Position numbers and translations under genes: made by a program
NCBI RefSeq assembly: GCF_014653115.1
Contig: NZ_BNAD01000012.1
Span: forward strand, 1 to 64,000
From: Nocardioides flavus (ex Wang et al. 2016)
GTDB taxonomy: Bacteria > Actinomycetota > Actinomycetes > Propionibacteriales > Nocardioidaceae
Direction: 5' to 3'
Length of the DNA: 64,000 nt
Shown: positions 15,622 to 17,769 of the stretch, one piece after another
Numbering within the stretch: the first letter of the stretch is position 1
Layout of the letters: each line of letters begins with the position of its first letter
Notes under the pieces: model-generated
The model's database searches: none
Told to the model about the DNA's origin: nothing
The model's input: only the letters and a program-made list of their open reading frames with translations

Positions 15622-17142
15622 TCAGCGGGTGATCGCCGCGACCAGCGCCTGGGCGGTGTCGCAGCGGTCGATCAGCTCGCCGACGTGGGCGCGGGTGCCC
15701 CGGAGCGGGTCGATGGTCGGCACCCGCTGGAGCGACTCGCGGCCGGGGAGGTCGAAGATGACCGAGTCCCACGACGCCGCGGCGACCGAGTCGGCGTACT
15801 TGTCGAGGCACCGCCCGCGGAAGTAGGCGCGCGTGTCGACCGGCGGGTCGTGCATGGCCGCCTCGATGGTGGCGTCGTCGAGGAGCCGCTCGATCCGCCC
15901 GGCGGCGGCGAGGCGGTGGTAGAGGCCCTTGTCGGGGCGTACGTCGGCGTACTGCAGGTCGATGAGGTGCAGCTTGGCGTCGTCCCACCCGAGGCCGTCG
16001 CGGTCGCGGTACTGCTGGAGCAGCTTGAGCTTGGCGACCCAGTCGAGCTCGGTCGCGCACTCCATCGGGTCCCGCTCGAGCCGGGTCAGCACCGACTCCC
16101 ACCGCGCCAGCACGTCGACCGTCTGGTCGTCGGCGTCGCTGCCGTAGCGGTCCTCGACGTACTTGCGGGCGAGGTCGAGGTACTCCAGCTGCAGCTGCAC
16201 GGCGGTCAGGCGACGCCCGTCGCGGAGCGTGACGAGGTGCCGCAGCGTCGGGTCGTGCGAGACGTCGCGCAGCGACTTGACCGCCCCTTCGACGCTCAGG
16301 TCGCGGTCGATGAAGCCGTCCTCGATCATGGCGAGCACGAGCGCGGTGGTGCCCGACTTGAGGTAGATCGACACCTCGGCGAGGTTGGCGTCGCCCAGGA
16401 TCACGTGGAGGCGGCGGTAGACCGCGGGATCGGCGTGGGGCTCGTCGCGGGTGTTGATGATCGGACGCTTGAGCGTCGTCTCGAGCCCGACCTCGACCTC
16501 GAAGTAGTCGGAGCGCTGGCTGATCTGGAAGCCGCGGTCGGCCGTGGTGTCGCGGCCGTCCTGCCCGATGCCGACCCGGCCGGCGCCGGTGACGACCTGC
16601 CGCGAGACGAAGAACGGGGTCAGGTGGCGCACGATCTCCGCGAACTGGGTCGAGCGCCGCATGAGGTAGTTCTCGTGGGCGCCGTAGGAGGCACCCTTGT
16701 TGTCGGTGTTGTTCTTGTAGAGCAGGATCGGCGTGCTGCCGGGCACCTGGGCGGCCATCCGCGAGGCGTCGAGCATCACCTGCTCCCCCGCCTTCTCCCA
16801 GCGCACCACGTCGAGCGGCGTGGTGACCTCGGGCGAGGAGTACTCGGGGTGGGCGTGGTCGACGTAGAGCCGGGCGCCGTTGGTGAGGATGACGTTGGCC
16901 AGGCCGAGGTCCTCGTCCGTCAGCTGGCTCGGGTCCGCGATCTGGCGCGCCATGTCGAAGCCGCGGGCGTCGCGCAGCGGCGACTCCTCCTCGAAGTCCC
17001 AGCGGGCCCGCCGGGCGCGCGCGGTCGAGCTGGCGTACGCGTTGACGATCTGCGAGGACGCGACCATCGGGTTGGCCGACGGCTGTCCCTGCACGGAGAT
17101 CCCGTACTCGACCTCCGTGCCCATCACGCGGCGTACGCTCAT
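15622..17142 (-). CDS. dop: Depupylase / deamidase of Pup (Dop)
   Basis: 506 residues, homologous to PafA. It begins [24 protein letters not shown] with the GTEVEYG metal motif and contains [29 protein letters not shown]. The Dop loop region follows [23 protein letters not shown]. It removes Pup from substrates. Since Pup here already ends in Glu, deamidation is not needed. The ATG at 17142 has a TAGGCT box 6 bases upstream (17149-17154), which lies inside the first codons of the divergent methyltransferase gene. Confidence 0.97.
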
Positions 17143-17154
17143 GTGATGAGCCTA
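17134..17154. promoter_or_regulatory. Interlocked leaderless promoters of dop and the methyltransferase gene
   Basis: The plus-strand box TACGCT (17134-17139) is 6 bases before the methyltransferase ATG (17146). The minus-strand box TAGGCT (17149-17154) is 6 bases before the dop ATG (17142). Each -10 box is inside the first codons of the other gene, and the start codons are 3 bp apart. Polymerase binding at the two promoters should be mutually exclusive. Confidence 0.6.
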
Positions 17155-17769
17155 CGGGTGTGGGACGAGCGGGTGCTGCCCCGGCTGACCGACGTGAGCC
17201 TGCGCGGCCGCGAGATCGGCGAGCTGCGCGAGCCCACCTGCGCGGGCCTGGTGGGACGGGTGCTGGAGCTCGGGTTCGGCAGCGGGCTCAACGTCCGCTG
17301 GTACCCACCGGCCGTGACGTCGGTGACCGCGATCGAGCCGTCCGACGCGGGGTGGTCGATCTCGGCGAAGCGGCGTGCGCGCACACCCCTGCCGATCGAG
17401 CGGGCCGGTCTCGACGGCCAGCGCCTCGACCTGCCGGACGACTCGCACGACAGCGCGCTGGTGACGTTCAGCCTCTGCACGATCCCCGACCCGGTCCTTG
17501 CGCTGAGGGAGGCTCGACGGGTGGTGCGCGAGGGCGGCCGGCTGCACGTGCTCGAGCACGGAGTGGCGCCCGAGGAGTCCGTACGTCGCTGGCAGCGCCG
17601 ACTCGAACCGCTGCAGCGCGCCGTCGCCGGAGGCTGCCACCTCACGCGGGACATCCCGGCCCTCGTCGAGGGCGCGGGATGGCGCGTGCAGGAGCTCGAG
17701 CGGGCGTACCTCCCCGGACCGGCCGTCGCCCGGCCGTGGACGTACGGCTACCGGTTGGTGGCGGGCTGA
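17146..17769 (+). CDS. Class I SAM-dependent methyltransferase
   Basis: A 207-residue methyltransferase. Motif I is [15 protein letters not shown], motif II the acidic IEPSD after the second strand, and post-motifs are [37 protein letters not shown], as in UbiE/Methyltransf_11 proteins of the phospholipid or quinone type. The substrate is unknown. It is divergent from dop with 3 bases between start codons. A TACGCT box 6 bases before the ATG predicts leaderless transcription. The stop is followed by an 11-bp tandem repeat array. Confidence 0.88.

Follow-up and report, generated by a model that had tools for sequence, protein, structure and literature searches.

In actinobacteria, leaderless promoters carry a TANNNT box just before the start codon (passages of PMC3898074 on M. 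tuberculosis and of PMC3848588 on P. acnes), and those of M. tuberculosis need no -35 motif (PMC3898074, in part). Both ATG and GTG work as leaderless start codons in mycobacteria, which also have RTGA-coupled leaderless small ORFs (passages of PMC4633059). A divergent gene pair of M. tuberculosis, prpD/Rv1129c, has mapped leaderless starts on both sides, and both genes are up in starvation (excerpts of PMC3898074). Bidirectional promoters have been defined by divergent starts 7–25 bp apart with reciprocally overlapping elements (excerpts of PMC10268837); start spacings of 18, 10 and 23 are preferred, and the -10 elements are symmetric (Warman, Grainger; passages of PMC12825309 and PMC10268837). 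In five such promoters of E. coli the basal activity is too low for substantial competition, which arises once one side is strongly activated (passages of PMC12825309).

Here we describe positions 17134–17154 of a 64,000-nucleotide stretch of Nocardioides flavus DNA (contig NZ_BNAD01000012.1; the whole stretch is called the window below). These 21 bp span the facing starts of dop and of a methyltransferase gene (MT), and we consider it likely, judging from the sequence and its relatives, that they form a double, interlocked leaderless promoter of the two genes. As in the leaderless TANNNT promoters described in those passages of PMC3898074 and PMC3848588, each box lies directly before a start and the mRNA is predicted to begin at the ATG or GTG; unlike in those promoters, each box is embedded in codons of the gene that faces it, and the starts are predicted. 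The locus shares with the bidirectional promoters of Warman and Grainger, as far as the cited passages describe them, a short sequence and two opposed, mutually excluding polymerases, the latter expected here from geometry. It differs from them in that the predicted starts are 4 apart rather than 7–25 bp and the boxes flank both starts without overlapping (definition from excerpts of PMC10268837), and in that both messages are predicted to be leaderless. With prpD/Rv1129c it shares divergent genes, leaderless on both sides, by prediction here and by mapping in M. tuberculosis, where the two genes go up together (PMC3898074, in part). We found no report of the crossed-box geometry in open-licence PMC papers, a scope outside which most subscription papers fall, and none in the passages of PMC12340547; a search of that literature for start-site mapping in Nocardioides gave no paper on the genus by title. 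The locus thus looks like a case of actinobacterial leaderless promoters in a new geometry and not like a new kind of system. If the starts are as predicted, two genes share one 21-bp promoter with 3 non-coding bases, tighter than the 7–25 bp of the definition.

Results

The features of the locus are as follows.

15622..17142, minus strand: dop, depupylase/deamidase of Pup, 506 aa; ATG at 17142-17140
17146..17769, plus strand: MT, class I SAM-dependent methyltransferase, 207 aa; ATG at 17146-17148
17143..17145, no strand: spacer GTG between dop and MT, the sole non-coding bases there; varies among relatives
17149..17154, minus strand (17154-17149): putative -10 box TAGGCT of dop, within MT codons 2-3 (AGC CTA)
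17134..17139, plus strand: putative -10 box TACGCT of MT, within dop codons 2-3 (minus-strand AGC GTA)
17134..17136, minus strand: dop codon 3, GTA, whose third base is the first T of the MT box
17152..17154, plus strand: MT codon 3, CTA, whose third base is the first T of the dop box
17142, minus strand: predicted leaderless transcription start of dop, from box spacing
17146, plus strand: predicted leaderless transcription start of MT, from box spacing

The dop protein belongs to TIGR03688, scoring 746.5 bits where 492.3 is the cut-off, and also matches Pup_ligase PF03136. The MT protein matches PF08241 at 54.1 bits, and no NCBIfam family reaches its cut-off for it. An earlier note on this DNA had placed the two ATG codons at 17142 and 17146, 3 bp apart, with a TANNNT box 6 nt before each, the dop box within the first codons of MT and the MT box within those of dop; all of this is exact to the letter. 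It had also assigned promoter information to codons 2-4 of each gene. The overlap with coding sequence is real, and the boxes span codons 2-3 only. Both window genes thus have a TANNNT 6–7 nt upstream together with an ATG or GTG start, the two marks of a leaderless promoter used here. A scan of 17000–17300 with the -35/-10 consensus found no pair, as expected for a promoter of the TANNNT type.

TANNNT occurs in the window (72% GC) at 0.00046 per position per strand, so infrequently that chance alone should not place two of them at the exact spacing. Before 49 gene candidates of the window, scored for in-frame starts inside the first 80 codons, the box stands at a spacing of 6 nt in nine cases and of 7 nt in six, and at each of the other spacings from 0 to 24 in at most two; the candidates are our own choice of ORFs, without MT, whose open frame overlaps dop. 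The pile-up at 6 and 7 nt is the signature expected of leaderless starts. In 15 of the 49 candidates an in-frame start is preceded by the box at 6 or 7 nt, so about one third of the window genes may be leaderless, going by this spacing.

Promoter boxes among relatives

The first 117 residues of Dop were used as query and matched in 178 of 186 Nocardioides genomes; the best 150 of these 178 regions were analysed, the 28 weakest matches being outside the set. Among the 150, a TANNNT stands before dop in 140, at 6 nt (105) or 7 nt (35), while the remaining spacings between 0 and 24 hold none. The box stands there whether or not MT adjoins. The ten regions without it comprise five with a 74-bp insertion, one with a different insertion (L238) and four in which the box is missing from that place (L202, L234, L235 and L243). 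A further 17 loci were selected from MT matches, an uneven draw, of which 15 were usable (L300 and L306 have no dop N-terminus); the dop box is present in 14 of the 15. In another set, of 80 Dop loci, 79 were scanned: the box is found in 48, including Kribbella (n = 3), Actinomadura (n = 3) and Sporichthya (n = 1), and is missing from 31, 25 of them in Streptomyces. Because the box is kept across the genus and in other genera, the predicted leaderless promoter of dop is an old one.

The interlocked arrangement, with starts 3 or 4 bp apart, is found in 33 of 165 regions (27 among the best 150 of 178 and 6 among the 15 extra ones), with a gap of 3 bp in 30 and of 4 bp in 3. All 33 regions are distinct, and their gap sequence exists in 14 versions. 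The dop start is ATG in all 27 interlocked regions of the 150, and the MT start in the 33 is ATG (30) or GTG (3). According to the trees, from which L192, L297, L151 and L206 were removed by hand in the case of MT, the interlocked genomes mainly form a single clade, with L155, L160, L213 and L295 nearby. Divergent MT-dop alignment gaps of 5 to 20 bp are absent from the 165 regions, perhaps since other spacings would break one of the boxes. By alignment, the gaps in the 165 regions measure either 3–4 bp or at least 21 bp; for unfused MT, which lies further from dop, such figures are alignment ends, and the probable starts are further out.

In 34 of 48 unfused MT genes (best 150 of 178 regions), MT has a TANNNT of its own at 6 or 7 nt, and the remaining spacings from 0 to 24 hold one match among the 48. 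The 150 regions contain 49 unfused MT; the one left unscored is L206, in whose genome (G093) a stop codon lies within the MT match. Three others, L202, L204 and L218, match MT at only 42–44% and may not be orthologues. Eight of the 14 unfused MT genes without a box show a Shine-Dalgarno-like stretch by a motif of our own, and among nine further unfused MT the box stands at 6 or 7 nt in six. Judged by this spacing, MT would be leaderless in most of the genus.

The nearest unfused relatives are L133, L170, L206 and L296. Only L170 has an MT box; the other three have a Shine-Dalgarno-like stretch before MT and no TANNNT box, and in the immediate ancestor MT may have had a leader. Codon 3 of dop is GTA in L133, L206 and L296 and GTT in L170, so that GTA may be older than the interlock and partly inherited.

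Five relatives (L106, L112, L113, L115 and L122) have a 74-bp stretch between dop and MT. It resembles a dispersed repeat, because similar sequence lies at 3 to 19 places in each of these five genomes, the dop place counted; there is 1 such place in the genome of the window and 0 in G114. In all five, an ATG lies 6 nt beyond the displaced dop box and begins a 25-codon frame, whose TGA overlaps the dop ATG. Two regions chosen by eye, L238 and L303, have different insertions with an equivalent outcome, and in all seven insertion genomes examined an ATGA joins the end of a predicted leaderless mini-ORF to the dop start. Their TGA overlaps the dop start, by sequence, as in the RTGA-coupled small ORFs of mycobacteria (passages of PMC4633059); unlike there, they arose through insertions that part a predicted leaderless promoter from its gene, and this in relatives of the window and not in the window. 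The mini-ORFs are supportive of a leaderless dop box and no proof of it, because a fitting frame is not improbable over two or three events. They suggest a way in which a leaderless gene could withstand the arrival of a repeat at its start. The same five relatives have GGAGGT at the distance of a ribosome site before MT, which suggests that their MT message is led.

Silent letters under the boxes

In all 33 interlocked regions, codons 2-3 read AGC CTA in MT and AGC GTA in dop. The third letter of each codon 3 supplies the first T of the neighbour's box, and both letters sit at fourfold sites. The dop V3 site has 0 changes over 38 interlocked or insertion genomes, at a mean of 6.7 changes per site for 174 fourfold dop sites; seven of the 174 are unchanged, the nearby V6 included, and V3 alone of these ends in A or T. 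Invariance by itself places V3 in the top 4%. In MT, L3 (CTA) is the sole invariant one of 46 fourfold sites across 26 interlocked genomes (the truncated L151 left out and the six extra interlocked genomes not included), and CTA makes up just 3 of 2,163 Leu codons elsewhere in these dop and MT genes. A test with independent pairs, run without the very long branch of L192, yielded 1 to 3 informative pairs, each of which agrees with the prediction (p at least 0.25), too few for significance.

It could be that only the dop promoter is real and that the MT box reflects a GTA present by chance and passed down within the clade, MT being silent or served by another promoter inside dop. We think this unlikely. 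Before CGN the window often uses GTA (24 of 119 Val codons in Val-Arg pairs), a frequency that also weakens the argument from GTA being a rare codon; rarity counts for little with GTA and strongly with CTA. The chance reading further draws on L133, L206 and L296, which have GTA although their MT looks led, and on the interlocked L151, which retains just a 54-codon remnant of MT. Against it, V3 stays unchanged in the 38 genomes while the adjoining R4 and R5 change 8 and 6 times, and the two other Val-before-CG sites of dop never end in A. A box at the leaderless distance also stands before those 34 of 48 unfused MT genes, and the interlocked gaps measure just 3 or 4 bp, holding both boxes at 6 or 7 nt.

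Codons ending in A tend in general to be found near starts. The third letters might accordingly be kept by codon choice or by weak mRNA structure near the start and not by promoters, and R4 does end in A in 26 of the 38 interlocked or insertion genomes. We regard this as highly improbable: dop codon 3 is most often GTG in the 127 other regions (GTG 64, GTC 24, GTA 21, GTT 18), the dop box is retained even where it is non-coding, and the spacing of the boxes is limited to 6 or 7.

The conserved boxes, spacing and third letters across relatives support the reading of the earlier note, that two leaderless promoters interlock here. That note had proposed to check whether the boxes are conserved above the surrounding third positions. 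Boxes and spacing are indeed kept while the gap and most neighbouring third positions vary; the case is strong for the dop box and fair for the MT box, and V6 of dop is invariant too. If the interlocked promoters are real, the locus is a clear example of synonymous letters under selection for a neighbour's promoter, and a single silent change in dop should turn MT off, as a single one in MT should turn dop off.

Codon 146 of MT (17581-17583) is a further fourfold site with GTA, present in 23 of 26 interlocked MT genes in the context GTACGT; the next codon is CGT, and GTA is a frequent choice before CGN. The numbering of site 146, as of other positions, is that of L101.

Proposed mechanism and polymerase exclusion

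In the interlocked arrangement, RNA polymerase would read TAGGCT on the minus strand and make dop mRNA from its ATG, or read TACGCT on the plus strand and make MT mRNA from its ATG, 4 positions off. The crossed boxes would flank both starts, each occupying +4 to +9 in the transcript of the neighbour. The dop promoter probably came first, with MT about 40 bp away, leaderless in most of the genus and perhaps led in the immediate ancestor. Loss of the intervening sequence would then have turned the dop promoter into codons 2-4 of MT (MSLR), and the GTA of dop would have become the MT box on fusion. If the starts are as predicted, the locus shows a promoter turning into coding sequence.

If each ATG is taken as +1, the two predicted melted regions (-11 to +2) have 17141–17147 in common. 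By this geometry, two polymerases cannot occupy the site together if both promoters work. Judging by the size of the polymerase, exclusion is also to be expected in unfused relatives, whose starts some 40 bp separate, and it would therefore not be special to the interlock.

The earlier note went further and expected the expression of depupylase and methyltransferase to be anti-correlated. An addition of this kind to the interlocked promoters is a regulatory switch, in which the orientation of the polymerase picks one gene or the other, and the overlap of the predicted melted regions and the retention of both boxes in 33 of 33 interlocked regions agree with it. We nevertheless rate the switch as decidedly improbable. 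The expectation of anti-correlation finds no support in the five bidirectional promoters of E. coli, which compete little at basal activity (PMC12825309, in part), and the joint rise of the divergent leaderless prpD and Rv1129c in M. tuberculosis speaks against it (PMC3898074, in part). In addition, the 74-bp stretch parts the genes in five relatives, so the interlock is dispensable, and most of MT is gone in L151. Anti-correlation is not the default, because whether exclusion matters depends on polymerase occupancy; dop and MT are likely transcribed mostly independently at low rates, and only strong activation of one would repress the other. That the orientation of RNA polymerase at the crossed boxes sets the balance of depupylase and methyltransferase, as a new two-way geometry with starts 4 bp apart, is in our estimate quite doubtful.

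Even with most of its MT lost, L151, where a 54-codon remnant is left, still has both boxes.

Further matches of the pattern

A search of 195 genus genomes for the gap-3 pattern gave 29 matches, 27 at dop/MT and 2 elsewhere (G114 and G162), and 1 in the reversed control; the right-hand frame of the G114 match has 35 codons. The gap-4 pattern gave 4 matches, 3 at dop/MT and L317, and 2 in the reversed control. The three matches elsewhere equal the three in the reversed controls, and within the genus the exact crossed pattern thus recurs only at dop/MT. Across the phylum (396 genomes), the gap-3 search matched in 14 genomes and its reversed control in 13, no excess, and at all 14 places outside the genome of the window one frame of the pair falls short of 75 codons. 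With matches at control level and frames so short, a wider class of crossed promoters is unsupported.

L317, a single gap-4 match, is no excess over the two in the reversed control. It lies around position 1501 of G043 and shows the gap-4 interlocked arrangement; the true start of its right-hand gene is unsure, and its two frames are, as we take them to be by eye, a MerR-like regulator and an acyl-CoA-dehydrogenase-like protein.
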